Positions 633-19,145 are shown, counted from the first letter of the stretch. The stretch is DNA of 64,000 nucleotides from Xenococcus sp. PCC 7305 (GCF_000332055.1 NZ_ALVZ01000226.1:1-64000), one strand, 5' to 3'. Program-made: numbers and translations. Notes: generated from the sequence alone by a model not told the origin.

Positions 633-3600
633 TTAATTATGAATTTTTGAGTACCGAAGCGTCATTAACAAATACAAACAAGGAACAAAATAAAGTGCCA
701 AAAGTGTTGCTCCACCGACTCCTCCGGCAACACAAATAGCTAAAGGACTCCAAAATTTACTTCCCAAGATTAATAAAGGAATAAAACCTACTATTGTAGT
801 AATTGTCGTTGTCAAAACATGACGAGTAGCGCGAAAGATCACTTCTACTATTGCTTGGCGGTTTCCCGAAGAAGCTTGAGGATGATTGCTTAAAGAGGCT
901 AAAACTACAATAGAATCATTGATTGCAACCCCAATCAAGCCTACAATGCCTAAAATTGCCATAAATCCTAAAGGATAGTTAAACCACCATAAAGAGAATA
1001 ATCCCAAACCAATAGAGCCAATGCCGACTAAGATAATGATCCCGGCAGCGCGAAAAGAATTAAAAGAAAGAACCAGAATTGCCATCATCAAAACCAACAA
1101 GACACTCACGAGAGACATTAGATTGCCGACTGTCTGATCTCTTTCTTGGGCTTCACCGCCAATTTCGAGGGAATAGCCCGCAGGAAATTGGATATTACTC
1201 GCTTCCATTTTTTCCTTAAACTCAGCCAAAACCGTTGAAGGTAATAACCCCGCAGTGACAAAACCATGAATAGTATTCACCCTTTTCCCATTACGTCTGC
1301 TTATGCTGGCGAGTTCTGGCACTAGTTCAATTTTGCTGACCGTGGATAAAGGAATCGGCGCTAAATTACCTGTAGAATTTAAGTTATTAGGTAATAATTC
1401 TAAGGTAGTAATCTGATCTAAATCAGCGCGATCGCGATTAGTAAGACGAACTCGAACCGGTATTTCTTCTGTATCCTCGATCATAGAGCCGCCTAGGGTG
1501 CCTTCAAGATGAGCATTAAGTTGTTGGGCAATCATCGTATTATCCAGCCCAGTAAGCTTAGCCTCTTCCTCATCTAAATTGAAAGCTAATTTGGGTAAAG
1601 CATCAGATATGCTAGCACGGGTAGAGGTAATACCTTTAACTTGAGCTAAAACTAAACGAACTTTTTTCCCCAGTTCTCTGAGAATATTTAAATCAGAACC
1701 ATAAAGCCGTAGCTCAATAGGCGCTGGCAGATAAGGCCCCTGTTCCAATTGTCTGACCAATACTTGAACAGAGGGAAATTTGTGGTTAAGTTCTATTTGC
1801 AAACGAGAAATTAAGGCTGCTACTTTCTGTTGTGAATTAAGCTGGACAATACCATGAGCAAAATTAGGACGATTTGAGGTTCTTCTGGGCAAATTATAGT
1901 AAAAAGATGGGGCCTCGGTGCCTAAAAACCAATGTACATCAGTAATTTCTGGATGCCTAAGTATAATAGTACGAGCTTTTTCTGCCAAAAACTGAGTTTT
2001 TTCTAGAGAAGCCGAAGCAGGTAATTCAAACTCAATATGAAACTGATCTCTCTCCGTGGGGGGGAAAAATTGTTCGGCAAGAGTCGCAGCCTTCAGAAAT
2101 CCTGTTACTGGCAAAATAAGAGCTAATACAATTCCCAAAATAGGTTTCCTCAAGATAAAATTGAGGGAAAAGCGATAAATTTTGCTCAGATAGGCATTAG
2201 AAAAACCTTGATTCCAAAATTGAGAGTAATTTTTTCTAGCTTTTTTATTATTTAACTTAGCGAAAAAGCTTGTTTTCTCAAGTTGATTGATTCTTCCTGC
2301 CAGAGCTGGAATAATAGTTAGAGAAAGAAATAAAGAACTCAGCAGAGAAATAATTACCCCCAAACCAATAGTGCTGACAAATTCGCCTGTACTTCCTGGT
2401 AATAAGGCAATGGGAAGAAAGGTTAAAATAGTGGTGAAATTAGAAGCAAGTAAGGGAATTGCTAAATAAGTGACAGTTTGAGAAATAGCCTTTTGGGGTT
2501 TAAGTCCTTGTTTGAGTAAATGTTCTACTTCATCAACAACCACGATCGCATTATCAATTAATAAACCTAAAGCAATTACTAATCCTGTTACCGATACCTG
2601 ATGTAGAGGAATAGAACATGCACTCATCGCGCCAAAAACCATCAGTAATGATAAAGGTAAAGCAGAGCTTACTACTAGCGCCGATTGCCATCCCATCATG
2701 AAGAAAGTGCTAGCAAAAACGAGTAATGCTCCTAACGCCAGATTTTGAAATAAGGTATTGAGGCGATTGGTGACATAAATATTTTGATCGGAAATAATAT
2801 CTAAACTAATTCCTTGGGGAAGCTGTTGTCGAAATTGTTCTAAGTTTTGATGAGCTCTAATTGCCCATTGATCTATGCGTTGCGTGGTATCAATGCGAGC
2901 TGCTAGGCTAACCCCCATTTTTCCATTGATAATCGCGAGTTCTGGTGGTGGTTCTCTAATGCCTTTGGTTACTAGGGCAATATCACCTAAGCGAGCTATT
3001 TGCCCTGAATTACCGAAGCTGATGGGAATATTTCTAATCCTGTCTAAAGAATCTAATTCGGTTTCAACTTCAATGAGTAAGTCATTATTTTTGTTATAAA
3101 GTTGACCAGTGGTAATTTTGGCATCACTAAGACGAATTTGTTGTGATAATTCTTGGGGTTTGATGTTGAGAGCGGCAAGATTTTCGGGATTAATTGCTAC
3201 GATAATTTCTTCTAGGGGTTCGGCAAATAAATTTACTTCCTCAGTACCAGGTATGCTACGAATTTGTTCTTGAAATTTTAGGGCTAGGCGTCTGAGAATG
3301 GCATAGTTAGCTGGGGAATCTAAGTTCCAAGTTATCCCGACAATTAAGCTATAAGCTTTGATATCTATTTCTTTATATTCTGATTCTAAAGCATCTGAGG
3401 GTAATTGGGATGTGACATCTGCTAAAAGATCTCTCACTTCACTCCAAACCTGGTCAAAATTGCTTACAGTGTCTTTTAATTCAATGCTAATAAAAGAGCT
3501 ACCAAGTTTGGAGATAGAATCAAGGGTTTTGATTTCTTCAATTTCTAATAATTCTTGTTCTATTTTTTCTGTCACTAAAGATTCAACTCTTTGAGCGCTA

Positions 3601-3755
3601 GCCCCAGGGAAAGGAATGACAATATAGGAGCTGAGACCACTCAACTCGGGGTCTTCCATGCGCGGCAGCAATTGAAATGAAGAAATGCCCCAGACTAAGA
3701 TCAGAAAAATTGTGAGGATTAGTAGTCTAAAATTACGATAAAAAAGATGACCCAT
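633..3755 (-). CDS. RND efflux transporter, AcrB-type inner-membrane pump
   Basis: A 1040-residue proton-driven efflux permease of the hydrophobe/amphiphile RND family, the usual length for AcrB-like pumps. One N-terminal membrane segment (about 9-28) is followed by a large periplasmic region, a membrane block (about 330-490), a second periplasmic region and a final block (about 850-1035), the duplicated RND architecture. The TM4 motif GLLIDNAIVVVDE (about 393-406) carries the acidic residue used in proton relay; the second-half counterpart is GVAINDSIVVLA. It follows the adaptor gene at 3950-5290 in the same direction, separated by 194 bp holding a dispersed repeat, so the two probably form one pump. 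No TolC-type outer membrane channel is visible here. The substrate cannot be predicted; drugs, lipids and metals are all possible. Confidence 0.93.
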   Translation of the reverse strand: MGHLFYRNFRLLILTIFLILVWGISSFQLLPRMEDPELSGLSSYIVIPFPGASAQRVESLVTEKIEQELLEIEEIKTLDSISKLGSSFISIELKDTVSNFDQVWSEVRDLLADVTSQLPSDALESEYKEIDIKAYSLIVGITWNLDSPANYAILRRLALKFQEQIRSIPGTEEVNLFAEPLEEIIVAINPENLAALNIKPQELSQQIRLSDAKITTGQLYNKNNDLLIEVETELDSLDRIRNIPISFGNSGQIARLGDIALVTKGIREPPPELAIINGKMGVSLAARIDTTQRIDQWAIRAHQNLEQFRQQLPQGISLDIISDQNIYVTNRLNTLFQNLALGALLVFASTFFMMGWQSALVVSSALPLSLLMVFGAMSACSIPLHQVSVTGLVIALGLLIDNAIVVVDEVEHLLKQGLKPQKAISQTVTYLAIPLLASNFTTILTFLPIALLPGSTGEFVSTIGLGVIISLLSSLFLSLTIIPALAGRINQLEKTSFFAKLNNKKARKNYSQFWNQGFSNAYLSKIYRFSLNFILRKPILGIVLALILPVTGFLKAATLAEQFFPPTERDQFHIEFELPASASLEKTQFLAEKARTIILRHPEITDVHWFLGTEAPSFYYNLPRRTSNRPNFAHGIVQLNSQQKVAALISRLQIELNHKFPSVQVLVRQLEQGPYLPAPIELRLYGSDLNILRELGKKVRLVLAQVKGITSTRASISDALPKLAFNLDEEEAKLTGLDNTMIAQQLNAHLEGTLGGSMIEDTEEIPVRVRLTNRDRADLDQITTLELLPNNLNSTGNLAPIPLSTVSKIELVPELASISRRNGKRVNTIHGFVTAGLLPSTVLAEFKEKMEASNIQFPAGYSLEIGGEAQERDQTVGNLMSLVSVLLVLMMAILVLSFNSFRAAGIIILVGIGSIGLGLFSLWWFNYPLGFMAILGIVGLIGVAINDSIVVLASLSNHPQASSGNRQAIVEVIFRATRHVLTTTITTIVGFIPLLILGSKFWSPLAICVAGGVGGATLLALYFVPCLYLLMTLRYSKIHN

Positions 3756-3949: not shown

Positions 3950-5290
3950 TTAATTTTCAAATGTTACCAATTGTCCCGGGACTAGACGATGAATGCCATC
4001 GGTGATTACTTGATCCTGGGGTTGGAGAGTGCCCCGAACTAAAATGCGATCGCTTTGGATCTGGAGAATTTCTACTGCTTTTTGCTCAACTTTAAACACA
4101 GATTGTTGTTCGGTGCGAATATCCTCTTGCTTCCCTAAAACGTAACAAGTCCACAAACCTCTTTCTCCTTCTACTAAGGCAGTTATCGGTAACCAATAGC
4201 CGGTCGTCTGAATCTTTTCGGTTAATTGGAGGGTGGCAATTTGTCCGGAGAAAAGCTCGATTTCTGCTCCTGGTTGGATTTTTAGAATAATGGTTAAGGT
4301 CCGAGTGCTAGGATCAAGTTCTGGCAAAATTGAGCTGACTTGAGCTTGATAGGTTCGATTGTCAATTTTTAAGGGAAAAATGTCACCTAGATCTATCTGA
4401 GCCGCATTTTGGGCAGGAACCCCGATATGGGCTTCTAATTGGCTATCTTCTACTAGTTTTAAAATAGTTTGACCCGTTTGTACGATAGTTCCTTCGTCAA
4501 CTAAACGAGCTGAGATTATTCCAGTGAAAGGAGCTTTTAAAACTGCTTTTTGAATCTCTAGTTCTAAATTAGCAATTTTTAAATCTTGCAGTTCAATTAA
4601 GGCTTTTTGCCCCTCTATTTGTTCAAAACGTGTTCCTGCTAATAATTCATCTAATTGACTTCGGTATTGATCTAAACGAGCTTGGATGGTAGCTACTTCA
4701 TTGCTCGCCTCGTCTAGTTGCTCTTGAGCAATTGCTCCTTGGGCATGTAAATTTTTGCGGCGATCGCTCTTCTCTTGGGCTAGTTTTAATTCTGTTTTTA
4801 ATTGTCTGACCTGGGCTTGAGCCGTGGCAATAGTTTCTACTCTGGAGCCATTTTCCATTTCCTGGAGCTGCGAAACCATTTGTTTGCGTTGAGCTAATAA
4901 TTCCTGTTGCGTAATTTTTAGACTACGAGTATCCAATAAAGCCAGAGGCATTCCTTTGGTCACTCTATTGCCTTGATCAACATTAATTACTGTCAATTTT
5001 CCCGGAATTTCAAAACCAAGTTCACTATTTCTTTGAGGTACGATTGTCCCTGTATAATTACGAAATACCCTGGCATAATTTACAGGAGTAATGGTTTTTG
5101 CTACAACAGGAATCAGACTAATAGATGGTGATGATTCTCTTGCTGATTTCTCGTTATTTTGCGATTGAGCAGCTAGATCAGATAAAAAAAATCTTCTTAT
5201 CGGAGTAATGAGAAAAAAACAAAAAATGAAGGAACAAATAATGATAATACTCCACAATAATCTATTTTGCCTTAACTTTCCTTGGCTCAT
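3950..5290 (-). CDS. RND efflux periplasmic adaptor (membrane fusion protein, HlyD/AcrA family)
   Basis: A 446-residue adaptor that would link the RND pump downstream to an outer-membrane channel. It has an N-terminal membrane anchor (about 12-35), then a barrel-sandwich/lipoyl-like half domain beginning ELGFEIPGKLTVINVDQG (about 84-101), a long Gln/Leu/Glu-rich coiled-coil hairpin (about 125-240), the returning half domain, and a beta-barrel region with the family pattern VDEGTIVQTGQTILKLVED. There is no lipobox cysteine, so it is anchored by the transmembrane segment. It is the promoter-proximal gene of a two-gene minus-strand unit with the transporter at 633-3755. The 343-bp upstream gap is shared with the divergent lipid cluster. 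Confidence 0.92.
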   Translation of the reverse strand: MSQGKLRQNRLLWSIIIICSFIFCFFLITPIRRFFLSDLAAQSQNNEKSARESSPSISLIPVVAKTITPVNYARVFRNYTGTIVPQRNSELGFEIPGKLTVINVDQGNRVTKGMPLALLDTRSLKITQQELLAQRKQMVSQLQEMENGSRVETIATAQAQVRQLKTELKLAQEKSDRRKNLHAQGAIAQEQLDEASNEVATIQARLDQYRSQLDELLAGTRFEQIEGQKALIELQDLKIANLELEIQKAVLKAPFTGIISARLVDEGTIVQTGQTILKLVEDSQLEAHIGVPAQNAAQIDLGDIFPLKIDNRTYQAQVSSILPELDPSTRTLTIILKIQPGAEIELFSGQIATLQLTEKIQTTGYWLPITALVEGERGLWTCYVLGKQEDIRTEQQSVFKVEQKAVEILQIQSDRILVRGTLQPQDQVITDGIHRLVPGQLVTFEN

Positions 5291-5633: not shown

Positions 5634-8600
5634 ATGAATCCTGTACCTGACTTAAAGAAAGATTCTGGGGTTTCTCTGGGACAAACGGAACAAGAGCAAT
5701 TAAAATTTCTGGAGCTTTTAAAATTTCTGGAGCTTTATCAAATCATGTTTACTGCCAGAGAAATTGACCTGCTGGAGGAGCAATATACAACTAGAGGAGA
5801 GGCTTTTTTTCACGTATCAGGAGCAGGACATGAAGCTGTTGCAACTATTAATCCTTATCTAATTCCCGAAGACTATTTGCATTGTCATTATCGAGATAAG
5901 GCTTTGATGCTGGCTCGGGGGATCTCGGTGGAAATGTTTTTCCATAGTCTTTTTTGCAAAGATGCGTCTCATTCTCGGGGGCGGCAGATGAGCGCACATA
6001 TGAGCGATCCTACGACCAATATTTTGAGTTTAGTTGGGCCTGTGGGCAATAATGCCTTACAAGCTGTGGGCGTTGCTGCTGAAATTAAAGATCAACCGCA
6101 AAACCCTCTGGTGTTTTGTTCCTTGGGTGATGGTACTAGTCAACAGGGAGAAGTTTTAGAGGCGATCGCAGAGGCCGTACGTTGGCAATTACCTGTTTTA
6201 TTTCTCATTGAGGATAATCGTTTTTCGATTTCTACTCGCACAGAGAAAAAGACTTTCTATAATTTGCTAGATGGCATAGTAGATAATTTCTATGGTTTGC
6301 CGATTCACCATTTAGAGGGTAAAAATCCCCTTCTTTGTGACCAAGTTTTCCAAAAAATTGTTTCTGAGATCAGGGAAACTCGCAAACCAGCCTTAGCCTT
6401 AATGAAGCTGGAGCGACTAACTAGTCATACCAATACGGATGATCAATCGATCTATCGTGATCGTCAAGAGATCGAACAAGTTAGACAAGAATATGATCCG
6501 ATTAAAATTCTAAGATTTGAGCTAGAAAAATTGGGCTGTGACGCTCAAGAATTAGTGTCTATTGAGGGAAATATTCGCTCAATAGTTAAACAAGCAGCAA
6601 AAGATGCTCAATTCAGTAATGAACCCCAGGCTTATTTTGCGGCTAAAGCTCCTCTCCCTCAGCATTTGTCGAAAACCGCAACAGAATATGTAGGAAACTC
6701 CGATTCTAGGCGTGTAACCATGCTGAATGCCATGAATAAAGTTTTAGGCGATCGCCTAGAGCAAGATTCTCGGGTTTTTTTGTATGGGGAGGATATTGAA
6801 GATCCCAAAGGCGATGTCTTCGGCGTTACCAAAGGATTAAGCCGTAAATTTCCTGGTCGAGTTGTTAATTCTCCCTTAAGTGAATCTACTATTGTAGGGA
6901 CTGCTGTCGGCAGAGCCTTGGCTGGCGGTCGCCCTGTCGCCTTTCTCCAATTTGCTGATTTTTTACCTTTGGCTTTTAATCAGATTGTCTCCGAATTAGG
7001 CAGTATGTATTGGCGAAGCGATGGTGGTTGGCAATGTCCTGTCATTATTCTGATTACTTGTGGTGGCTATCGTCCTGGTTTAGGGCCTTTTCATGCTCAA
7101 TCCTTAGAAGCGATCGCAGTTCATACTCCTGGTCTTGATGTGGCAATGCCTTCGACCGCTGGAGATGCAGCAGGAATGCTAAACGCTGCCTTTGATTCGG
7201 GAAGACCAACCCTATTTTTCTATCCCAAAAGTTGCTTAAATCTAGTCGATTTAGCTGCTACGACTTCCGATGATCCCCAGCGCCATTGCGTTCCGGTGGG
7301 TAAAGCCAAAATAGTTCGTGCTGGCAGTGATATTACCTTCGTCGGTTATGGCAACGCGATCGCTAGATGTTTACAAGCAGCAGATGCTCTGGATATCGAG
7401 GGCATTAAATCAGAAGTTATAGATCTGCGCTGGCTGGCTCCTTGGGACGAAGAAACAGTTCTCAAATCTGTTAATAAAACTGGAAAATTAATTGTTGTTC
7501 ATGAAGATAATCAAAGTTGCGGCATGGGTGCCGAAATATTAGCGGTAGTAGCCGAAAAATCCTCAACTCCCGTGACAGCAAGACGAGTAACCAGAGCAGA
7601 TACCTATGTTCCTTGTAATTTTGGTAATCAACTAGAGATCTTGCCTTCCTATAAACGCATTTTAGAAACAGCGGCAGACTTATTAGATTTAGATCTAGAT
7701 TGGATAACTCCCCCAGCTACAGAAGAAGGAATCTTTATGGTGGATGCGATCGGCGTTGGACCTTCCGATGAGACGGTAATTGTTCTGGAATTGGATATCT
7801 CAGAGGGAGCAGAAGTTGCCGAAGGTCAATGTTTAGGGGTTTTAGAAGCTTCCAAGGCCGCTTTTGATTTAGAAGCCCCAGTTCAAGGTGTCGTTGAGAA
7901 AATTTATGTCACAGAGGATCAAGAAGTTGCTGTAGGTCAGCCTTTATTTAAAATTCGGATTGACAAGGATCATATTCCTGCTCCGAAACCCATTACCCGA
8001 GAAGATCCTGGTCAACCAGTTATCAAAAGAAGACAAGCTGTTACTACTGCGACCCAATTGATGAGCCGGGCAACTAAATTAAAGATTGGGATTCAAGGGA
8101 TTGCCTGTGTCTTAGGCTCCAAAAATATTACTAATGAAGAAGTTGTGCAATCAATTGCCGGGAAAGAAGCGAATGATGTTTTAAAACTCACCGGAATTGC
8201 CAGCCGTCATTGGATTGAGCCAGGAGAAACGGTGTTAACTCTGGCAAAAGACGCAGCTCAAAAAGTTTTAGCGGCGCAACAAGTTCAGATTCATGATATT
8301 GACCTCATTATTTGCACTACTGGGACACCTTCTCAGATAACGCCATCCCTAGCTTGTCAATTATTGTATGAGTTGGCAGGAAGTGATTATGAATGCCCAG
8401 CTTATGATCTCAATGCTGCTTGTAGTGGCTATTTATATGCTCTGCAAAATGCCTATTTATATTTACGAAAGCATCCTTCTTCCAAGGTTTTACTAGTTAC
8501 TTCAGAAATATTATCACCTCTTTTAGATCCGCAAAATTTCGATACCCAGATTATTTTTTCCGATGGTGCAACCGCAACTATATTATGCGGGGAAGCTCAT

Positions 8601-9041
8601 TTGGATTCTTGTTCTTTTGTGGTTAACGAACCTATCTTGAGTGGCAGTGGGGAACCGTTGGATTCTTTATATGTTCCTACGGTTAATAGCAGTCAGAACA
8701 TTTCGATGAAAGGCAGAAAAGTTTTTACTAAAGCTGTCAAGAAAATGACAAGTGTTTTAAATCAAGCTTGTACGAAAGAAAATATCAAAGTTACTGAGCT
8801 TGATTTAGTGATACCCCACCAAGCTAATCAACGAATTATTGACGCGATCGCCAAAAAAATTGGTTTTCCAGAGAAAGTTGCCTCCAACATCAAACATCAC
8901 GGCAATACATCTTCAAGTTCTATTCCTATTTATCTGGCGGAAAACTGGAGCACTCTCCAAAGCAAAAAGACCCTGGCCTTAACCGCATTTGGGGGTGGAT
9001 TTACCTATGCTGCTGCTATTTTAAATAGCTTAAGAAGATAA
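5634..9041 (+). CDS. Four-domain fusion: 2-oxo acid dehydrogenase E1 alpha + E1 beta + lipoyl domain + KAS III
   Basis: An 1135-residue cytosolic fusion. Residues about 25-330 are E1 alpha, with the thiamine diphosphate signature GDGTSQQGE beginning at residue 165. About 355-685 is the E1 beta/transketolase-like half. About 700-775 is a lipoyl domain with the modifiable Lys741 in LEASKAAFD. About 815-1135 is a KAS III (FabH-like) domain with an intact triad: Cys930 in NAACSG, His1062 in IPHQAN, Asn1091 in HHGNTSS. There is no E2 catalytic or E3-binding domain between lipoyl and KAS III. Inference: a 2-oxo acid is decarboxylated on ThDP, the acyl group moves to lipoate and then directly to the KAS III cysteine for condensation, perhaps with malonyl carried by the ACP encoded next. 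An exact 18-bp tandem duplication near the N-terminus duplicates six residues. Leads the six-gene cluster and contains several HIP1 sites. Confidence 0.9.
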   Translation: MNPVPDLKKDSGVSLGQTEQEQLKFLELLKFLELYQIMFTAREIDLLEEQYTTRGEAFFHVSGAGHEAVATINPYLIPEDYLHCHYRDKALMLARGISVEMFFHSLFCKDASHSRGRQMSAHMSDPTTNILSLVGPVGNNALQAVGVAAEIKDQPQNPLVFCSLGDGTSQQGEVLEAIAEAVRWQLPVLFLIEDNRFSISTRTEKKTFYNLLDGIVDNFYGLPIHHLEGKNPLLCDQVFQKIVSEIRETRKPALALMKLERLTSHTNTDDQSIYRDRQEIEQVRQEYDPIKILRFELEKLGCDAQELVSIEGNIRSIVKQAAKDAQFSNEPQAYFAAKAPLPQHLSKTATEYVGNSDSRRVTMLNAMNKVLGDRLEQDSRVFLYGEDIEDPKGDVFGVTKGLSRKFPGRVVNSPLSESTIVGTAVGRALAGGRPVAFLQFADFLPLAFNQIVSELGSMYWRSDGGWQCPVIILITCGGYRPGLGPFHAQSLEAIAVHTPGLDVAMPSTAGDAAGMLNAAFDSGRPTLFFYPKSCLNLVDLAATTSDDPQRHCVPVGKAKIVRAGSDITFVGYGNAIARCLQAADALDIEGIKSEVIDLRWLAPWDEETVLKSVNKTGKLIVVHEDNQSCGMGAEILAVVAEKSSTPVTARRVTRADTYVPCNFGNQLEILPSYKRILETAADLLDLDLDWITPPATEEGIFMVDAIGVGPSDETVIVLELDISEGAEVAEGQCLGVLEASKAAFDLEAPVQGVVEKIYVTEDQEVAVGQPLFKIRIDKDHIPAPKPITREDPGQPVIKRRQAVTTATQLMSRATKLKIGIQGIACVLGSKNITNEEVVQSIAGKEANDVLKLTGIASRHWIEPGETVLTLAKDAAQKVLAAQQVQIHDIDLIICTTGTPSQITPSLACQLLYELAGSDYECPAYDLNAACSGYLYALQNAYLYLRKHPSSKVLLVTSEILSPLLDPQNFDTQIIFSDGATATILCGEAHLDSCSFVVNEPILSGSGEPLDSLYVPTVNSSQNISMKGRKVFTKAVKKMTSVLNQACTKENIKVTELDLVIPHQANQRIIDAIAKKIGFPEKVASNIKHHGNTSSSSIPIYLAENWSTLQSKKTLALTAFGGGFTYAAAILNSLRR
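5701..5736 (+). repeat. 18-bp exact tandem duplication inside the fusion gene
   Basis: TAAAATTTCTGGAGCTTT occurs at 5701-5718 and again at 5719-5736 without a mismatch. It keeps the frame and duplicates six residues (LKFLEL) just before the E1 alpha core. The perfect identity suggests a recent slippage event. Confidence 0.9.
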
Positions 9042-9129: not shown

Positions 9130-9393
9130 ATGACAAAAACACAAATTAACAAAAAAACTCTGTTAGAAATTCAGGCATGGTTAGTTAATTATTTAGCTAA
9201 ATCTTTGGAAGTAGAAACAACAGAAATTGATATTAAGGCATCTTTTGATGAATATTCTTTAAATTCCCATGATGCTATTTACTTAACTGGGGAATTGGAA
9301 GAATGGTTGGGATTTGAATTAGAAGCTACTTTGCTCTATGAATATACTAACATCAAAGAACTTTCTGAACATTTAGATTCGCAAGATTTGTAA
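9130..9393 (+). CDS. Acyl carrier protein
   Basis: An 87-residue free-standing carrier protein with the four-helix ACP pattern. The phosphopantetheine attachment serine is Ser46 in the block EYSLNSHDA, followed by a helix with ELEEWLGFELE, as in ACPs paired with fatty acyl-AMP ligases. Thus an acyl chain loaded by the FAAL at 13923 could be presented to the oxoamine synthase, or malonyl to the KAS III domain upstream. It lies 88 bp after the fusion gene. The canonical DSL is replaced by NSH, somewhat unusual, but the serine is kept. Not the housekeeping acpP: context and the divergent motif point to a dedicated carrier. Confidence 0.88.
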   Translation: MTKTQINKKTLLEIQAWLVNYLAKSLEVETTEIDIKASFDEYSLNSHDAIYLTGELEEWLGFELEATLLYEYTNIKELSEHLDSQDL

Positions 9394-9549: not shown

Positions 9550-10356
9550 ATGATAATGAAAAAATCAAGTTTTTTTAAAAACAAGTTGGTTTGGATCACA
9601 GGAGCATCTTCTGGAATTGGAGAGCATCTTACTTATCAACTCGCAAATCTTGAAGCTAATTTGGTTATTTCAGCTCGTACAGAAAGTGAATTGCAGCGAG
9701 TAAAAGCTAATTGCAATAATAACGCCAATATTATGGTTTTGCCCCTTGATTTATCTGATATTAATTCAATTAAAGATAAGGTTAAAAAAGTAAAAGAAGT
9801 ATTTGGCAAAATTGATATTTTAATAAATAATGCTGGAATTGGTCAAAATGGATTTGTAGCCGATACCCAAATTAATATTTATCAGAAAGTTCTAGATATT
9901 AATTTAATAGGTACAATTACTTTGACTAAAGCTGTAGCTCCTATTCTACAAGCACAAGGACATGGTCAAATAACTATTGTTAGCAGTATTTTAGGACATG
10001 TAGTTTTGCCTAAGTATTCAGCTTATAGTATGTCTAAACATGCTTTAAATGCCTTTGCTCACACCATTAGATTAGAACTAAAAAAAGATAATATTCAAGT
10101 CCTACTTGTTTGTCCAGGGGCAACTCAAACCAATATGGAAGAGAAAGCAATTAATGGTTCTGGGAAAGTTATGGGAATAAAACCTAAAGAATATGAAACT
10201 TGGCTGCTTCCTGAAAAAGTTGCCCAAAAAATTATCATTGGTATCCAATCAGGAAAACGAGAAGTTATAATTGGTCATTGCTATGAAAAATTGGCGGTAT
10301 TCATCAATCGCTATTTTCCTTCAATCTATTTCAAATTAGCAGTTGACTTTGAATAA
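9550..10356 (+). CDS. Short-chain dehydrogenase/reductase
   Basis: A 268-residue classical SDR, cytosolic or membrane-associated. The cofactor motif TGASSGIG is at about 17-24, NNAGIG at about 93-98, a serine (VSSI) at about 147, and the catalytic YSMSK tetrad segment at about 159-163, so an active NAD(P)-dependent oxidoreductase is expected. Within this cluster the likely substrate is the 3-keto product of the oxoamine synthase, by analogy with 3-ketodihydrosphingosine reductases; this is inference from neighbours. An alternative start lies two codons in, at 9556. No clear Shine-Dalgarno is seen. This gene and the next two lack HIP1 octamers and are more AT-rich than the flanking cluster genes, which hints at a different origin. 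Confidence 0.9.
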   Translation: MIMKKSSFFKNKLVWITGASSGIGEHLTYQLANLEANLVISARTESELQRVKANCNNNANIMVLPLDLSDINSIKDKVKKVKEVFGKIDILINNAGIGQNGFVADTQINIYQKVLDINLIGTITLTKAVAPILQAQGHGQITIVSSILGHVVLPKYSAYSMSKHALNAFAHTIRLELKKDNIQVLLVCPGATQTNMEEKAINGSGKVMGIKPKEYETWLLPEKVAQKIIIGIQSGKREVIIGHCYEKLAVFINRYFPSIYFKLAVDFE

Positions 10357-10490: not shown

Positions 10491-11384
10491 ATGAGATATG
10501 TTTCAGGCATAATGCCACTATTTATGACAATAATTTCCTTGGCTATTGTAGTTATTGAATGGATTACACTGACAATCACTAAGAAAATTGAAAGCCATAA
10601 GGAAGGAATTGTCAATATTTCTAGTGCGGCTTTAACTTATATCCCAATTTTTATCACCAATAAATTGATAACTATTTCCTTAATGTTCTGGATTTATCAA
10701 TATAGATTATTCGATCTAAAATTTGATTGGTATGTCTGGATATTAGCCTATATAGGATATGATTTTATGTCCTATGCCATTCATTATTTATCTCATAAAG
10801 TCCGTCTTTTTTGGTGTATTCATACAGTGCATCATTCTCCAAAGGAAATGAAAGCATCTGTTGCTTTTAGAGGTTCTTTTGCCGAATTCATCCTGGCTCC
10901 TCATCTAACTCTGTGGCTTCCTATTTTAGGATTTCATCCTCTTTTGATCATAATAATTGATGGAATTGGTCAACTTTATGGTGTCCCGCTTCACCTCAAC
11001 CAACATATATTCCCAGATTCAAAATATTCCGGAATACAAAAATTCTTGATTACACCATCAGTACATAGACTTCACCATGCCAAGAATGATATTTATCTAG
11101 ATAGAAATTATGGTCTAACATTTAGGATTTGGGACTATCTATTCCAAACCTCTCAGGTAGAATTACAGCAAGAAAAACCCATTTATGGCATAAGCAAAAA
11201 CATTAACAGCGAAAACCTATTAGTTTCCCAAACTGATGAGTTTATTGAACTATGGCAAGATATCAAAAATGCTCCTAGTTGGCTTGACAAAATTAAATAT
11301 TTGGTGATGCCTCCTGGCTGGAATTATATTAATGGAGGATATACAGCTGAAAATATAAGAAACAATGCCTTATTGAAACTATAG
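10491..11384 (+). CDS. Fatty acid hydroxylase / sterol desaturase superfamily membrane protein
   Basis: A 297-residue integral membrane di-iron oxygenase. Several hydrophobic helices (about 8-28, 47-70, 80-100, 140-165) surround the histidine clusters of the family: HYLSH (about 98-102), HTVHH (about 111-115), HLNQH (about 167-171) and HRLHH (about 193-197). Members hydroxylate or desaturate lipid chains using oxygen and an electron donor. In this cluster a C4- or alpha-hydroxylation of a long-chain base or amide-linked acyl chain is an attractive guess, as with the eukaryotic SUR2-type hydroxylases; a carotenoid- or sterol-type substrate cannot be excluded. It lies 134 bp after the SDR, same strand, with no HIP1 site and AT-rich codon use. 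Confidence 0.88.
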   Translation: MRYVSGIMPLFMTIISLAIVVIEWITLTITKKIESHKEGIVNISSAALTYIPIFITNKLITISLMFWIYQYRLFDLKFDWYVWILAYIGYDFMSYAIHYLSHKVRLFWCIHTVHHSPKEMKASVAFRGSFAEFILAPHLTLWLPILGFHPLLIIIIDGIGQLYGVPLHLNQHIFPDSKYSGIQKFLITPSVHRLHHAKNDIYLDRNYGLTFRIWDYLFQTSQVELQQEKPIYGISKNINSENLLVSQTDEFIELWQDIKNAPSWLDKIKYLVMPPGWNYINGGYTAENIRNNALLKL

Positions 11385-11428: not shown

Positions 11429-13879
11429 ATGCCTAAAAATCTTCATGCTCATTGGGTAAAAACTATCGATAAACTTGTTGAAAATGGCATCAAGCAAGGT
11501 TTAAATCAACATTTTACTGATAATGAATTTCTGAATGGAAGAATTATAACTCTTCAAGATCGCAATTATGTTAACTTTGGCTCCTGTAGCTATTTGGGCC
11601 TAGAACAACATCATAAATTAATTGATGGAGTTACAGACGCAGTAAGAAAATATGGCACACAATTTTCTTCTTCTAGGGCTTATGTCGCCGTCGGACTGTA
11701 TCAAGAATTAGAAACTTTATTACAAGAGATTTTTGATAAACCTGTTGTCGTTACAGCCAGTACAACTTTAGGGCATTTATCAGCTTTACCAATTTTGATA
11801 GGAGATAATGATTGTATTCTTCTCGACTATCAAGTTCATTCCAGTGTGCAAATGGCCGCGCAAGTGCCTAAAGCTCGTGGAGTTGATGTGGAAATTCTGC
11901 GTCACAATTCCATGACGCAACTAGAAGAAACCATCAAAAAAATTAAACATAAATACGATAAAATCTGGTACTTGGCTGATGGTATTTACTCTATGTATGG
12001 AGATGTAGCACCTTTACCAGAGTTAGTCCGTTTATTGGATACTTATCCACAGCTTTATGCCTATATTGATGATGCTCATGGTATGAGTTGGACGGGGAAA
12101 AATGGTAGAGGCTATGTTCGCAGTCAAATCGACCATCATTCTAAAATGGTATTAGCAGTTTCGTTGAATAAATCCTTTGCTAGTGCGGGGGGAGCCTTAG
12201 TCTTTCCTAATGAAACTTTCACTAGCCAAGTTAAAAATTGTGGCAATACCATGATTTTTTCTGGGCCAATTCAACCACCAATGCTCGGGGGTGGCGTGGC
12301 TTCGGCTAAACTCCATTTATCAGAGGAAATTGTAGATTATCAGAATGAATTAAAGGAGCTCATTAAATATACAAATCAATGTATTACTGAGCTAAATATC
12401 CCTCAAGTTGAAATTAATGATAATCCGATCTTTTTTATTCCTGTTGGCCTAGTTAAACCTATTCAATCTTTTGTCTCTCGAATAATTAAAGATGGATTTT
12501 TTGTTAACCCTGCGGCCTTTCCGGCAACGCCAATGAAACAAGGTGGGATACGTTTTTCTCTGACTCGTCACATATTGAAACGTGATATAGAACAACTTCT
12601 TGAGCGGATTGCTTTTCACTATCCTGTAGTCTTACAAGAACATAATTTTACGGAACAAGATGTAGCCAAGAATTTCCAGATTCCTGAGTTTCAAATTCAA
12701 TCAAGTCAGGAAAAATTTGGCTTTGTTTCGCTGAAAAATCATTCATCTTCTAAGCTTGATATTCAATTTACTCGTCGCTTAAAGGACATTAATGCTCAAG
12801 AATGGGATAATCTATTTGCGACCAAAGGTAACTTTACTTACTCTAGTATTGAATTACTGGAAAAGGTTTTTACATCACAAGATAATGAGCCAGAAAATCA
12901 GTGGGATTTTTTCTATTTTATAGTCAAAGATGAAGCTGATAAAATTGTTTTAGCGACATTTTATACCTGTGCCAAAATAAAAGAAGATATGTTCTCTTCT
13001 CAAGAAGTATCAAAAAAAGTAGAAGCGATGCGTCTTGATGATCCAGATTATCTTACTGGCAAAGCAGTGATGTTAGGATGTCTGATGTCTAAAGGAGAAC
13101 ATCTTTATCTTAATCGTCAGCATTCTCGATGGAAACAGGCACTTCGTTTATTGGTTGAGCAAATTTCTCTTACGGTACAAGAATATCAAGCATCTCAGGT
13201 GTTATTAAGAGATTTTCCCTTGAATGACGATGAAGAATTAAAAAATACAATGTTTGACCTTGGTTTTGTGCAATTACCTTTACTAGATATATGTATTATG
13301 CAGGATTTGTCTTGGTCAACTCACCAAGAATATATGACTAGGTTAGGACGTAAGTATCGTTACAATGTCAAAAAAGAAATATTGGCCTATGAATCTCAAT
13401 TTGAAGTAATTATTGATTCTGAGATGTCACCAAGGGAAATTCGCCACAGTTATGAACTATATCGTCAAGTTCAACAAAGAGCTTATGAGTTGAATGTTTA
13501 TCCGCTTCCCTATGCCTTTTTTGAAGCAATTTGTCATCATCCTGACTATGATATTATGCGGCTTTATCTCAAGGATGATCCAGCATCTAGAGCTGAGGAG
13601 AAACCAGTGGCAGTTATGTTTAGCTTTGTGAATGCCGGTGTTTATTCGGCTTTAATTGTTGGTTTGGACTATCAATATTTAAGAACTCACAATATCTATA
13701 AACAAATTCTTTATCAAACTGTACAAAGATCTAGGGAGTTAGAATGTCAAACTTTAGACTTGGCTTACACCGCAGTTTTAGAAAAGAAAAAAGTTGGAGC
13801 TAGACCTCATCCGATGTGTGCCTATGTTCAATCTTTGGATCGTTATAGCCAGGCAGTACTTGATGCGATGGTAGTTTGA
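11429..13879 (+). CDS. Alpha-oxoamine synthase fused to a GNAT/FemAB-like N-acyltransferase
   Basis: An 816-residue bifunctional protein. Residues about 20-400 are a PLP-dependent alpha-oxoamine synthase (serine palmitoyltransferase / KBL / AONS family). The cofactor lysine is Lys248 in SLNKSFASAGG, and DDAH (Asp215, His217) contacts the pyridine ring. Such enzymes condense an acyl thioester with an amino acid and release CO2. Residues about 440-816 form an acyltransferase of the GNAT/FemAB-like type, with the core RLGRKYRYNVKKEI and later LIVGLDYQYL. Bacterial ceramide synthases of the Caulobacter type are also GNAT-related, so this half could N-acylate the amine made by the first half. Which amino acid is used cannot be read. 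Autoinducer (CqsA-like) or sulfonolipid-type condensations are alternatives. It lies 44 bp after the hydroxylase and 43 bp before the FAAL. Confidence 0.87.
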   Translation: MPKNLHAHWVKTIDKLVENGIKQGLNQHFTDNEFLNGRIITLQDRNYVNFGSCSYLGLEQHHKLIDGVTDAVRKYGTQFSSSRAYVAVGLYQELETLLQEIFDKPVVVTASTTLGHLSALPILIGDNDCILLDYQVHSSVQMAAQVPKARGVDVEILRHNSMTQLEETIKKIKHKYDKIWYLADGIYSMYGDVAPLPELVRLLDTYPQLYAYIDDAHGMSWTGKNGRGYVRSQIDHHSKMVLAVSLNKSFASAGGALVFPNETFTSQVKNCGNTMIFSGPIQPPMLGGGVASAKLHLSEEIVDYQNELKELIKYTNQCITELNIPQVEINDNPIFFIPVGLVKPIQSFVSRIIKDGFFVNPAAFPATPMKQGGIRFSLTRHILKRDIEQLLERIAFHYPVVLQEHNFTEQDVAKNFQIPEFQIQSSQEKFGFVSLKNHSSSKLDIQFTRRLKDINAQEWDNLFATKGNFTYSSIELLEKVFTSQDNEPENQWDFFYFIVKDEADKIVLATFYTCAKIKEDMFSSQEVSKKVEAMRLDDPDYLTGKAVMLGCLMSKGEHLYLNRQHSRWKQALRLLVEQISLTVQEYQASQVLLRDFPLNDDEELKNTMFDLGFVQLPLLDICIMQDLSWSTHQEYMTRLGRKYRYNVKKEILAYESQFEVIIDSEMSPREIRHSYELYRQVQQRAYELNVYPLPYAFFEAICHHPDYDIMRLYLKDDPASRAEEKPVAVMFSFVNAGVYSALIVGLDYQYLRTHNIYKQILYQTVQRSRELECQTLDLAYTAVLEKKKVGARPHPMCAYVQSLDRYSQAVLDAMVV

Positions 13880-13922: not shown

Positions 13923-15677
13923 ATGATCAATCAAAAATTTAAGTTTTTGCCTCAACATCAATTAAATTCTATGGCTGATATTCTTAGTTATCAGGCGGCA
14001 ACTAAACCCAATGCAACAGCATATATTTTTCTGCAAAATGGGGAGAGAGAAACGGCTAGAATAACTTATCAAGAATTGGAGAAAAAAGCCAAAGAAATAG
14101 CTGTTTATCTTCAGGCATGGCAAGGAGAAAGAGCCTTATTACTTTATCCGCCTGGATTGGAATTTGTTACCGCATTTTTTGGTTGTTTATATGCAGGAGT
14201 TATTGCCATTCCTGTTTATCCCCCACGGCGTAATCAAAAGTTATCTCGCTTACTGATGATTGTTAATGATGCTGAAGCAAACTTAGCATTCACAACTACG
14301 GCAATTTATGATGATATTCAAAAAAGATGGACTGAAGAAACCAAGTTAGCCAATCTAAAATTGATTGCTACAGATACGATTGAAGCTAATAGTCAAGATT
14401 TTATTGTTAAATCCATTGCTCCTGAAAGTTTAGCTTTTTTACAATATACTTCTGGGACAACAGGAAAGCCCAAAGGGGTCATGGTTAGTCATGGCAATAT
14501 TGTTCACAATCAACAGGTAATTCATCGTGCTAGTCTGCTAAACGAGGAGAGTATTATTGTCAGTTGGTTGCCGATGTTTCATGATTTAGGATTAATTGGC
14601 AACGTTTTATATTCAGTTTATTTGGGATCTTCTATTATTTTGATGCCTCCGGTGGCCTTTCTCCAAAAACCGATACGTTGGTTAAGAGCGATCGCGAAAT
14701 ATCAAGGGAATGCTAGTGGTGGGCCTAATTTTGCTTACAATGCTTGCATTGAAAAAATTAAGCCAGAACAGTTAGAAGATCTCGATCTTAGTAGTTGGCA
14801 GATCGCTTTTAATTGTGGGGAAAATGTTTTAGCGAAAACTATAGAACAATTTAGTACCAAATTTGCTCTCTATGGTTTTAGTAAAAATTCTTTTTATCCT
14901 TATTATGGATTAGCAGAAGGAACTTTATTTGTTACGGGAAGACAAAAAAATACGGAGCTGATTATTAAAGATTTTGAGGCTACGGCTTTGGAGCAAAATC
15001 AGGTGCTTGAAAGTGCAGCAAATAAATTATCTTCTCGTCGGTTAGTTAGTTGTGGTCATTGTTGTTTGGATGATCAAGTAGTAATTGCTAATCCTCAAAC
15101 TTTAACTTCTTGCCCTGAGGGGGAAGTAGGGGAAATTTGGGTTTCAGGAAAAACTGTTGCTCTAGGATATTGGCAACAAAATGACAATGCTACATTTAAA
15201 GCTTTTCTTAAAGATAGAGTGGAAGGTCCATTTTTACGTACTGGGGATTTAGGTTTTGTATGGCAAGGTGAGCTGTATATTACGGGTCGTCTCAAAGAAG
15301 TTATTATTATCAGAGGGCAAAATCATTATCCTCAAGATCTAGAATTTACAGTACAACAAACTCATCAAGCTTTAAGAAAGAATCACGGAGCAGCTTTTAC
15401 TGTAGATATTGATGGTCAAGAGAAATTAATTATCGTTCAAGAAATAGAACGTCAGTACCGAAAAACCTTCAATAAACAGGAGCTCACTCGTCTGATCAAT
15501 AAAAATGTTACAGCTCAACATGGATTGGATATTCATACTATTCTCTTTGTCAAACCTGGTGCGATCGCTAAAACTTCTAGTGGCAAAATTCAACGTCTGA
15601 TTTGTCGAGAAATATTTCTTCGAGGAGAATTTATTAGTTTAGGTGAGACCAAACAATTAGCAAAGCTCTCTATGTAA
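13923..15677 (+). CDS. Fatty acyl-AMP ligase (FAAL)
   Basis: A 584-residue ANL-superfamily enzyme that adenylates a free fatty acid and, in the FAAL branch, hands it to an ACP rather than CoA. Motifs: phosphate loop YTSGTTGKPKG (about 177-187), FHDLGLIG, the YYGLAEGTLFVTG block (about 321-333) typical of FAALs, RTGDLG (about 439-444), and the C-terminal KTSSGKIQR with the catalytic lysine. The FAAL reading rests on the FHDLGLIG and YGLAEGTLFVTG blocks and on the dedicated ACP upstream. It closes the cluster, followed by a hairpin region and the convergent KH gene. It has HIP1 sites, unlike the three genes before it. Likely role: activating the acyl chain for the oxoamine synthase or for N-acylation. 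Confidence 0.92.
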   Translation: MINQKFKFLPQHQLNSMADILSYQAATKPNATAYIFLQNGERETARITYQELEKKAKEIAVYLQAWQGERALLLYPPGLEFVTAFFGCLYAGVIAIPVYPPRRNQKLSRLLMIVNDAEANLAFTTTAIYDDIQKRWTEETKLANLKLIATDTIEANSQDFIVKSIAPESLAFLQYTSGTTGKPKGVMVSHGNIVHNQQVIHRASLLNEESIIVSWLPMFHDLGLIGNVLYSVYLGSSIILMPPVAFLQKPIRWLRAIAKYQGNASGGPNFAYNACIEKIKPEQLEDLDLSSWQIAFNCGENVLAKTIEQFSTKFALYGFSKNSFYPYYGLAEGTLFVTGRQKNTELIIKDFEATALEQNQVLESAANKLSSRRLVSCGHCCLDDQVVIANPQTLTSCPEGEVGEIWVSGKTVALGYWQQNDNATFKAFLKDRVEGPFLRTGDLGFVWQGELYITGRLKEVIIIRGQNHYPQDLEFTVQQTHQALRKNHGAAFTVDIDGQEKLIIVQEIERQYRKTFNKQELTRLINKNVTAQHGLDIHTILFVKPGAIAKTSSGKIQRLICREIFLRGEFISLGETKQLAKLSM

Positions 15678-16604: not shown

Positions 16605-19145
16605 TCACCGAGTCATGAAAGCATTGGTCGCTCGACAAGAATCAACATTTAACAATACTTCTGCGGGCAATTGAGAAAACCATTGATTGCTAAATTGCTC
16701 TAGGTTTTTGCTTTTTAAAAAACCGTTGATCATATCTTGCCATTGACGATCATTATCGGGAAGTAAAATCCCATAATAATCACAAGTTAGAGGTTGCTGA
16801 GGGAAGAGTAGATAATCACCACTGGTTAAGCCTTGGCGTTCGATTTCCTGGCTAGACAAAATGCTGCTACTGGCAAAGGCATCAATGGACTTATTTTGTA
16901 GAGCTCCTACTGCTCTGGCGATCGCATTTTCCCCTTCAAAATACATTTTTTCCGCTGTGGGATATTTTGCTTCAATGAACTTTTCTGTCGTGGTATTTCT
17001 AACTACACCAATAGTGAAATCTGCCAAATCTGCAATTTTCCCGACCTGCTCAGCCCAGTCACTAGAGACCAGAAACTTAGTTCCCGTGGCAAAGAAGGGT
17101 TGAGAGAAAGTGAGATCCTCAATATCATTCCTAATGGAATTGGGACCGCATTCGAGATGGACTTGGTCCTGTTGTACTAGTTGATAGCGATTTGAGACAT
17201 TAGAAGGCAATTTGACGACTTGAATCCCGCCAGGCCGGTTCAACGCTATTTCGAGATGCTGTTCTAGCGAATTGATAAAACTAGCACAGTAACCAGACCA
17301 ATTTGCATTTTCCTCTAGAAACCCGAAGGGTTTGGCATCGCTTCTTACCGCCACTTTTAGGACTCCAGTGCGCTCAATTTCCTCTAAAATTGACTCCTCT
17401 CGTGGGGCTTTAGCTACCGTCACAGGATTGGGCAGCAAGGGAAAAGGTGGCTTTTTGCCGTAGGCAGTTTCTAGTTGTTCTGGTTGCAAAGATTGAGTCA
17501 GATAAAGACGAATATCCGCTTCTTGGGACATCTTCTTAGTATGAGCCGCCGTGAGATAGGGTTTATATTCTGCTAATTCTCGTAGATGATAATTAAAGAA
17601 AGCAACCGACATTGTCTTGAGATAATCATAGGCGATCGCGCTTTGGCCATTTAGTTGGTTGGAACTATCCAGCGCAGGCATGCCCTCTAGTCCCACTTGC
17701 TCTACAGTAGAAAAATGAGTTCCTGGATCTAGTAAAGTAAAATACCGCTCGGGGGTTTCTAACCAGAAAAAAGGATGAATTTGATTTTGAACAGGGGGAA
17801 CCGTGGTGTCTTTGCTGCTAGACCAAATCATCGTGGGGATCTCAAGAGTGGCCATTCCCTCAGGGCCGAAAATTGGATTAGTTAGGGGATATACGGCAAA
17901 GACAGCCTTGATGCGAGGATCTCTTAACTGAAAACTAATCGGTGGGAGATGTTGCGCTTGGCACTGAAAGTAAAAACTAAAAACAGGGTTCAAATCGTCT
18001 TGACTGCATTCTGCTGCTAGTCTAGGTTGATTAATTTCTGCTCCTGCGATCGCAAGTGCACTATAACCCCCGAAAGAATAACCAAAAACGCCTACCTGCT
18101 CCAGATTGAGTTTAGCTGCCCATTGCGGGTCTTGGGCTGTCAAATTCTCTAATTCATCTAACAAGTAAGTCACATCCAAGGGACGACTAATAAATTCAGC
18201 AGGATTAATCCAACCGCTTAGTTCTCTATTGGGCGAGGCCATACGCTGAGCTAAATTAGTTCCATGATGCTCGATAGAGGCCACCGCATAACCAAAGGAG
18301 GCCAATTGTTGAGCTACATAGCCATAGGTATCTGGGGTCGCGCCAAAGCCTTGGGTGATAATGATTAAAGGAGCTGGGTCAGGATTGTCCTGGGGAAGAT
18401 ATAAGTCAAAATCTAAAGTATAGGAAGAAGCTAGTCCAATATTAATTGAGCGCAAACTATCAACTTCAAAAGACATTGTTTGCTTGCTTACTTGCCAAGG
18501 ACCAGGTTGGCTCAAATCTTCAAGTTGCGAGACATCGAGGCGCGAGTTTTGCGCTTCCGCTTCCGACTGCTGAATAATTTCTGTGACGACTGCTTTTTGA
18601 TAGCTAGATAACTTGGCTAAATCTCGTCCAATCTGAATTAAATAATCAGAGTCGAGATAAATATCTTTGGTGGGAAAATGACGTAAAAAATTAATTACCG
18701 TGAGACCTTCTTCCTCATCTGCTGCGGACAAAATTGCCGCGGCTCTCATGCCATAAAAGCCATTAACCCCAGGACTTATCTTGACAGCTTTACCTATCTT
18801 GTTAAGTATTTCTTCAGCTATGGGAAGACGGGCGTAACGGGCAAGAAAAGCAGGCTCAATGTCAAAGCGCTGTTGAAGAAGTTCTCGTAGTTGAACTTTG
18901 GTGGCCTCATCAAGACGATTGGTAATTAGAGCGAGATCAGAATTAGCTTGTCCTTGTTCGGCAAAAGTTTCCAGATCATCAACTGAAATAGCTAGTTGTA
19001 GCGGCCCGACAAAAGTCACAATTCTCTCCGCAGACAAAATCGGTTTGGGTCTGAGCAAAACTGCTATGGTACTTATGCCCATAAATAAACAAGCAGTTGT
19101 TACTAGATTAAGTAATCTCTGGTGATTGGCTTTCGTTGGAGACAT
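16605..19145 (-). CDS. Exported alpha/beta hydrolase (DUF1400 N-domain) fused to a solute-binding domain
   Basis: An 846-residue protein. An N-terminal hydrophobic segment (about 13-32) looks like a signal peptide or anchor. Next comes a DUF1400-type region, starting near AERIVTFVGPLQLAISVDDL, found in cyanobacterial hydrolases. An alpha/beta hydrolase follows with the nucleophile elbow GYSFGG (serine near residue 356) and a PAF-acetylhydrolase/dienelactone-like core ending with a THFST histidine (about 470). From about 580 to 835 there is a second, unrelated domain beginning ERTGVLKVAVRSDAKPFGF, which resembles family 3 (amino-acid type) periplasmic binding proteins. Joining an esterase to a ligand-binding domain in one exported chain is unusual; a split ORF or sequencing fusion cannot be excluded, but the frame is open throughout. 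Confidence 0.85.
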   Translation of the reverse strand: MSPTKANHQRLLNLVTTACLFMGISTIAVLLRPKPILSAERIVTFVGPLQLAISVDDLETFAEQGQANSDLALITNRLDEATKVQLRELLQQRFDIEPAFLARYARLPIAEEILNKIGKAVKISPGVNGFYGMRAAAILSAADEEEGLTVINFLRHFPTKDIYLDSDYLIQIGRDLAKLSSYQKAVVTEIIQQSEAEAQNSRLDVSQLEDLSQPGPWQVSKQTMSFEVDSLRSINIGLASSYTLDFDLYLPQDNPDPAPLIIITQGFGATPDTYGYVAQQLASFGYAVASIEHHGTNLAQRMASPNRELSGWINPAEFISRPLDVTYLLDELENLTAQDPQWAAKLNLEQVGVFGYSFGGYSALAIAGAEINQPRLAAECSQDDLNPVFSFYFQCQAQHLPPISFQLRDPRIKAVFAVYPLTNPIFGPEGMATLEIPTMIWSSSKDTTVPPVQNQIHPFFWLETPERYFTLLDPGTHFSTVEQVGLEGMPALDSSNQLNGQSAIAYDYLKTMSVAFFNYHLRELAEYKPYLTAAHTKKMSQEADIRLYLTQSLQPEQLETAYGKKPPFPLLPNPVTVAKAPREESILEEIERTGVLKVAVRSDAKPFGFLEENANWSGYCASFINSLEQHLEIALNRPGGIQVVKLPSNVSNRYQLVQQDQVHLECGPNSIRNDIEDLTFSQPFFATGTKFLVSSDWAEQVGKIADLADFTIGVVRNTTTEKFIEAKYPTAEKMYFEGENAIARAVGALQNKSIDAFASSSILSSQEIERQGLTSGDYLLFPQQPLTCDYYGILLPDNDRQWQDMINGFLKSKNLEQFSNQWFSQLPAEVLLNVDSCRATNAFMTR

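Follow-up and report, generated by a model that had tools for sequence, protein, structure and literature searches.

By the textbook account, all acyl groups derived from 2-oxo acids go via the E2 core of a dehydrogenase complex and coenzyme A (CoA) before they are used by FabH, a 3-oxoacyl-acyl carrier protein (ACP) synthase III (KAS III); in Bacillus and Staphylococcus, the branched-chain 2-oxo acid dehydrogenase and FabH are separate proteins. Among the described systems, BkdABC of Photorhabdus includes a protein, BkdB, that has an ACP (PMC4578411, PMC4901931). The polyoxypeptin A operon orf5-orf10 of Streptomyces sp. MK498-98 F14 encodes an E1 alpha of 303 aa, an E1 beta of 326 aa, an 82-aa 'E2', an 82-aa ACP, a 312-aa KAS III, and a crotonyl-CoA reductase/carboxylase (CCR) homologue; feeding placed its product unit downstream of isoleucine, and the E1/E2 genes were assigned to beta-keto reduction, lipoyl-to-KAS III transfer not being proposed (PMC3943440). 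Here we analyzed a 64,000-nucleotide stretch of the Xenococcus sp. PCC 7305 genome (NZ_ALVZ01000226.1:1-64000; hereafter the window), in which one gene joins E1 alpha, E1 beta, a lipoyl domain, and KAS III into a single chain. The fusion is real, conserved and, in the literature searched, unstudied, and its sequence indicates that it is probably a one-chain, CoA-independent starter-unit synthase.

The open reading frame (ORF) starts with ATG, contains no internal stops, and encodes 1135 residues, in which Pfam recognizes E1_dh (36-332), Transket_pyr (361-535), Transketolase_C (556-667), Biotin_lipoyl (709-774), ACP_syn_III (924-986), and ACP_syn_III_C (1047-1131); the NCBIfam KAS III model begins at residue 817. 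The ORF and these matches bear out the architecture proposed by an earlier sequence-only reading, and Lys741, Cys930, His1062, and Asn1091 lie exactly where that reading had placed them. The E1 part is of the alpha2beta2 type with a thiamine diphosphate (ThDP) site (PF00676, PF02779, PF02780): GDG165-167 and His265 of the alpha domain, as well as Glu417 and His487 of the beta domain, align with their counterparts in solved E1 structures of pyruvate dehydrogenase (PDH) and branched-chain 2-oxo acid dehydrogenase, and 31 homologues keep the catalytic positions unchanged, apart from variation at Asp166 and Gly167 (ThDP motif) in a few of them. The lipoyl domain (PF00364) has a modifiable lysine, Lys741; this residue and the glutamate three positions before it occur in all 57 sequences covering both positions. 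The KAS III domain passes PRK09352 (265 bits, cut-off 249), falls below the fabH model TIGR00747 (228 bits, cut-off 292), and retains its Cys-His-Asn triad in 51-52 of the 52 fusions. AlphaFold prediction (five models on 31 family members) gave a mean pLDDT of 87.5, and in Foldseek searches one half of the fusion matched branched-chain/pyruvate E1 beta and the other matched FabH.

The chain had been claimed to lack an E2 domain, and a Pfam search of all 1135 residues agrees, returning no match to the E2 core (PF00198) or to E3_binding at E<=1. An E2-like acyltransferase fold concealed in the stretch that links the lipoyl domain to KAS III (about 775-815), which the sequence-only reading had named as a refuting finding, is ruled out by the following observations: (i) Pfam detects none, (ii) an E2 core takes about 230 residues and only about 40 are present, (iii) family members differ in both the length and the sequence of the linker, and (iv) the AlphaFold model of the linker has low confidence and one short strand, without a helical pair. 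Given the absence of both an E3_binding match and this helical pair, no peripheral subunit-binding domain was found in the fusion.

The sequence-only reading had proposed a survey of the same architecture; carried out across bacterial and archaeal genomes, it yielded 57 loci, and in most of them the complete fusion, about 1100-1190 aa long, is encoded with 46-72% identity. About 50 genomes, drawn from eight phyla, share the architecture: Cyanobacteriota, Planctomycetota, Verrucomicrobiota, Kiritimatiellota, Lentisphaerota, Spirochaetota, Pseudomonadota, and, through one metagenome-assembled genome, the actinomycetes. Many hosts are metagenome bins, and single taxon assignments may be wrong, but the breadth of the spread is not in doubt. 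These homologues rule out a local fusion artefact and, at the level of sequence, identify the fusion as a conserved family rather than a local accident. Within cyanobacteria the gene is present in only 1 of the 129 genera sampled, a second fusion (L008) belonging to the same genus, and this rarity suggests horizontal gain. A separate, stronger FabH is encoded in nearly all of the 29 host genomes searched; no high-scoring one was found in two sampled hosts, G045 and G057, both metagenome bins of unknown completeness. Thus, the fusion is an additional enzyme, and a role as the cell's only FabH is ruled out.

A search of Planctomycetota revealed sister fusions of E1 alpha, E1 beta, lipoyl domain, and E2 core (L061, L067, L068, L070, and L071 in Planctomycetota; L059 in Leptospirales), whereas L069 of the same group is frame-shifted past the E1 part. 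PF00198 was confirmed in L061 (E 7e-41) and L059 (E 9e-40), where it lies at the place otherwise taken by KAS III. In the E2-core fusions, one chain holds the greater part of a 2-oxo acid dehydrogenase complex. A gammaproteobacterial protein (L136) ends after the lipoyl domain; its gene lies beside genes for a SET-domain protein and a WelO5-like halogenase, apparently in a natural-product cluster. An E1 beta tree sets the fused chassis off from ordinary E1 as a single clade (100/100), which divides into the E2 fusions (100/99), the lipoyl-only protein, and the KAS III fusions (96/93). On this chassis, KAS III thus occupies the place of E2.

The KAS III domain itself has changed at the CoA site. 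In FabH of Escherichia coli, the CoA adenine is held by Trp32 and Arg151, and ACP is contacted by Arg249. Comparison of 52 fused KAS III domains with 21 standalone FabHs of the same genomes (two wrong-frame sequences of 23 were removed) revealed Trp32 in none of the fused domains versus 21/21 FabHs and Arg151 in 0/52 versus 16/21; Arg249 is retained in all 52 fused domains. The Xenococcus fusion has Asp, Phe, and Arg at positions 32, 151, and 249, respectively. In the KAS III tree, the root of which is distorted by the misread KAS III of L096, the fused domains form one group apart from FabH, save one doubtful frame-shifted row.

These features suggest the following pathway: (i) the E1 domains, intact like the lipoyl domain, would use ThDP to decarboxylate a 2-oxo acid and would then reductively acylate the lipoyl moiety of Lys741, (ii) the lipoyl arm would swing to the attached KAS III and pass the acyl group to Cys930, bypassing both E2 core and CoA, a direct transfer that we infer because of the exchange of E2 for KAS III and the lost CoA site, (iii) condensation with malonyl-ACP on KAS III would lengthen the acyl group by two carbons to a 3-oxoacyl-ACP, as the intact triad, the retained Arg249, and the adjacent ACP genes suggest, and (iv) the ordinary dihydrolipoamide dehydrogenase (Lpd, E3) of the genome could re-oxidise the lipoyl group. 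In Xenococcus, the product would probably enter the adjoining operon of ACP, short-chain dehydrogenase/reductase (SDR), hydroxylase, oxoamine synthase/GNAT, and fatty acyl-AMP ligase (FAAL) genes. The domain order, the residues and their conservation, the exchange of E2 for KAS III, and the loss of the CoA residues are seen directly in the sequences, whereas the lipoylation of Lys741, the direct acyl transfer, the condensation, the substrate, and the product are predictions; the genome contains Lpd and LipA genes and one E2 only, which is taken to belong to PDH. Direct loading of KAS III from acyl-lipoate, as the earlier reading had envisaged, thus gains support from the E2-core/KAS III exchange, the loss of CoA-adenine residues, and the adjacent ACPs. 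On balance we lean towards the broader proposal of a widespread, as yet uncharacterised class of enzymes: in these, KAS III would have taken over from the E2 core of the 2-oxo acid dehydrogenase, and acyl-lipoate, not acyl-CoA, would prime lipid or fatty-acid synthesis inside a single polypeptide.

Several points weigh against this interpretation. Arg36, a further CoA contact, is present in 41 of the 52 fusions, though not in the Xenococcus one. The loss of Trp32 and Arg151 may be a single event, since the fused KAS III domains essentially form one clade, and such losses are also known in KAS III-like enzymes with other donors. The lipid-like operon is specific to the Xenococcus genome and does not prove a general role, because homologues elsewhere sit in unrelated contexts.

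The 2-oxo acid could be pyruvate, in which case acetoacetyl-ACP would provide a CoA-sparing start of straight-chain fatty acids; this alternative, compatible with the mechanism outlined above, is a possibility that we do not favour. Pyruvate is the commonest 2-oxo acid, and the E1 alpha domain scores highest against PDH models, but the top E1 structural match is a Thermus branched-chain E1, and the ordinary FabH already found in nearly all sampled genomes also argues against it. Furthermore, position 87, which limits the acyl pocket of FabH, is Thr, Ser, or Cys in all 52 fusions versus Phe in the organism's own FabH and 12/21 others. This position favours an acyl group larger than acetyl only weakly, because 4/21 FabHs also have Thr there. 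Taken together, a branched or otherwise larger 2-oxo acid seems weakly favoured over pyruvate. In the congener L008, the fusion gene diverges from a KAS III-like gene and a Glu/Leu/Phe/Val-dehydrogenase-family gene, the product of which best matches glutamate dehydrogenase models, yet under cut-off; these neighbours would fit an amino-acid-derived 2-oxo acid.

The fusion gene and five downstream genes of Xenococcus lie on the same strand with gaps of 44-157 bp (Table 1), and the downstream genes look like an amino-alcohol (sphingoid-like) lipid pathway. The oxoamine synthase is under the cut-off of every specific model (157 bits against 640 for the serine palmitoyltransferase (SPT) of bacterial sphingolipid (spt) loci), so that its assignment extends no further than the wider oxoamine synthase family. 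Terminator and promoter patterns gave nothing convincing that would either split or confirm the operon. The fusion might be a general accessory enzyme that lies beside an unrelated operon by chance, as homologues without that operon, L008 included, would allow; we consider this rather unlikely, given six same-strand genes so spaced, all of them usable on ACP-bound acyl chains. A lipid operon shared by all homologues was sought and not found: their contexts vary, with neighbours such as aconitase in spirochaetes, a radical-SAM enzyme in Kiritimatiellota, and a microcompartment (BMC) shell protein in Planctomycetota. In six related Planctomycetota (L023, L025, L027, L028, L029, and L031), the BMC shell-family gene begins at the end of the fusion gene, hinting that the enzyme or its product may be confined. 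In another gammaproteobacterium (L137), an ACP gene overlaps the fusion gene by 8 bp, which is an independent link between the fusion and an ACP.

Two further observations concern the surroundings of the operon. Oxoamine synthase-GNAT fusions like that of the window recur in three other cyanobacterial genera (L112, L113, L114, L115, and L116), where ACP and FAAL genes are missing and the adjoining gene encodes a membrane protein (about 320-480 aa), possibly a signal-synthase arrangement. An 846-aa protein encoded at 16605-19145 (minus strand) joins a DUF1400 alpha/beta-hydrolase-type region to a solute-binding-protein domain (PF00497).

Table 1. Coordinates of the fusion gene, its domains, neighbouring genes, and related loci. 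Locations without a locus prefix are positions in the window.
Feature	Location	Strand	Evidence
Fused E1 alpha - E1 beta - lipoyl - KAS III, 1135 aa	5634..9041	+	Single ORF; Pfam; same-architecture homologues in ~50 genomes
E1 alpha domain, aa 36-332; ThDP motif GDG 165-167, His265	5739..6629	+	PF00676 E 3e-39; aligned to Thermus and human E1 alpha
E1 beta domain, aa 361-667; Glu417, His487	6714..7634	+	PF02779, PF02780; aligned to 3duf_B, 1um9_B
Lipoyl domain, aa 709-774; Lys741 codon 7854-7856	7758..7955	+	PF00364 E 1.6e-12; Lys741 and Glu738 in 57/57 homologues covering them
Linker, ~40 aa, without E2 core	7956..8081	+	Low pLDDT, single short strand; variable among family members
KAS III domain, aa 817-1131; codons Cys930 8421-8423, His1062 8817-8819, Asn1091 8904-8906	8082..9026	+	PF08545, PF08541; PRK09352; FabH structural matches
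ACP, 87 aa, 88 bp downstream of fusion	9130..9393	+	PF00550 E 2e-13
SDR	9550..10356	+	PF00106 E 7e-51; PRK06181 222 bits, cut-off 215
Fatty-acid-hydroxylase-family di-iron enzyme	10491..11384	+	PF04116 E 5e-25
Alpha-oxoamine synthase (SPT/BioF/CqsA-like) fused to GNAT-type acyltransferase	11429..13879	+	PF00155 46-394, PF13480 641-778
FAAL	13923..15677	+	PF00501 E 4e-68; FAAL models
RND periplasmic adaptor, divergent; possible exporter, membership uncertain	3950..5290	-	PF16576; TIGR01730 158 bits, cut-off 95
RND permease, divergent; possible exporter, membership uncertain	633..3755	-	PF00873 E 3e-154
BMC shell-family protein, about 7 bp past fusion gene	L023:13314-13940		
KAS III-like and Glu/Leu/Phe/Val-dehydrogenase-family genes	L008:319-1362 and 1412-2620	-	
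E1 alpha - E1 beta - lipoyl - E2 core fusion	L061:9593-13117		
E1 alpha - E1 beta - lipoyl - E2 core fusion	L059:1647-4835		
Lipoyl-terminated E1 alpha/beta protein, 781 aa	L136:7626-9968		
Streptomyces plasmid-borne synthase starting lipoyl - E2 core - ACP - ketosynthase	L144:7969-10500		

The remaining alternatives concern the reaction of KAS III. The domain might be a transacylase only, moving the acyl group from the lipoyl domain to the phosphopantetheine of ACP without condensation, as in CerJ; ketosynthase (KS) enzymes with acylating activity are known for cervimycin and xenocyloin (PMC4578411), and in two lineages the fusion has an ACP gene beside it. We regard this as unlikely, given that the Cys, His, and Asn of decarboxylative condensation are so widely retained and that the domain scores as an ordinary KAS III. 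Least probable is use of the cell's ordinary E2 in trans, with the tethered KAS III taking the resulting acyl-CoA like FabH: a PDH E2 is available and Arg36 persists in most fusions, but every fused domain lacks Trp32 and Arg151, which most FabHs from these genomes retain, KAS III substitutes for the E2 core on the same chassis, and the chain has no peripheral subunit-binding domain.

Direct transfer from lipoyl domain to KAS III, if true, would skip the E2 core and CoA and thereby provide a new start for fatty-acid and polyketide chains, would explain how unusual starters could arise in bacteria that lack a branched-chain E2, and would offer a compact engineering tool for keto-acid-primed lipids. 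The data suggest that the fusion may let cells start lipid chains from a keto acid without prior acyl-CoA.

The statement that no characterised enzyme works this way holds for the fused enzyme, as no description of a lipoyl/KAS III fusion was found in the literature searched; it does not hold for the logic, which is present, unrecognised, in the split polyoxypeptin operon orf5-10. Judged by gene lengths only, that operon is the nearest published set of E1 alpha, E1 beta, lipoyl domain, ACP, and KAS III without an E2 core: its 'E2' is probably a lipoyl domain, because 82 aa is too short for an E2 core. It differs from the fusion in comprising six separate genes with a CCR homologue and in making an extender unit, whereas the Xenococcus locus has no CCR among the scanned ORFs of 633-21860. 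The fusion bears directly on this published split cassette of an antibiotic-type cluster, in which the E1/lipoyl genes were given another role. The Bacillus and Staphylococcus route leads, like the fusion, from 2-oxo acid via acyl-lipoyl to 3-oxoacyl-ACP overall, but uses separate proteins, an E2 core, and an acyl-CoA intermediate; Photorhabdus BkdABC comprises three proteins rather than one chain. On a Streptomyces plasmid (L144), an E1 alpha/beta gene is followed by a synthase beginning with lipoyl domain, E2 core, ACP, and KS, and gene order is similar in L145 and L146. In the L144 system, an acyl group of keto-acid origin is probably channelled from lipoyl domain to ACP; unlike the fusion, that system still has an E2-like core, and the synthase that it loads is of the type I polyketide/peptide kind. 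FabH shares with the fusion the KAS III fold, the triad, and the ACP-contacting Arg, whereas the fused domain has lost the CoA-adenine residues and sits behind a lipoyl domain. The E2-core fusions, sisters in the E1 beta tree, have the same E1-lipoyl chassis but have an E2 acyltransferase core, not KAS III, at the C-terminus and presumably yield acyl-CoA. Thus, channelling from lipoyl domain to ACP already has relatives, and the new element is the one-chain replacement of E2 by KAS III.

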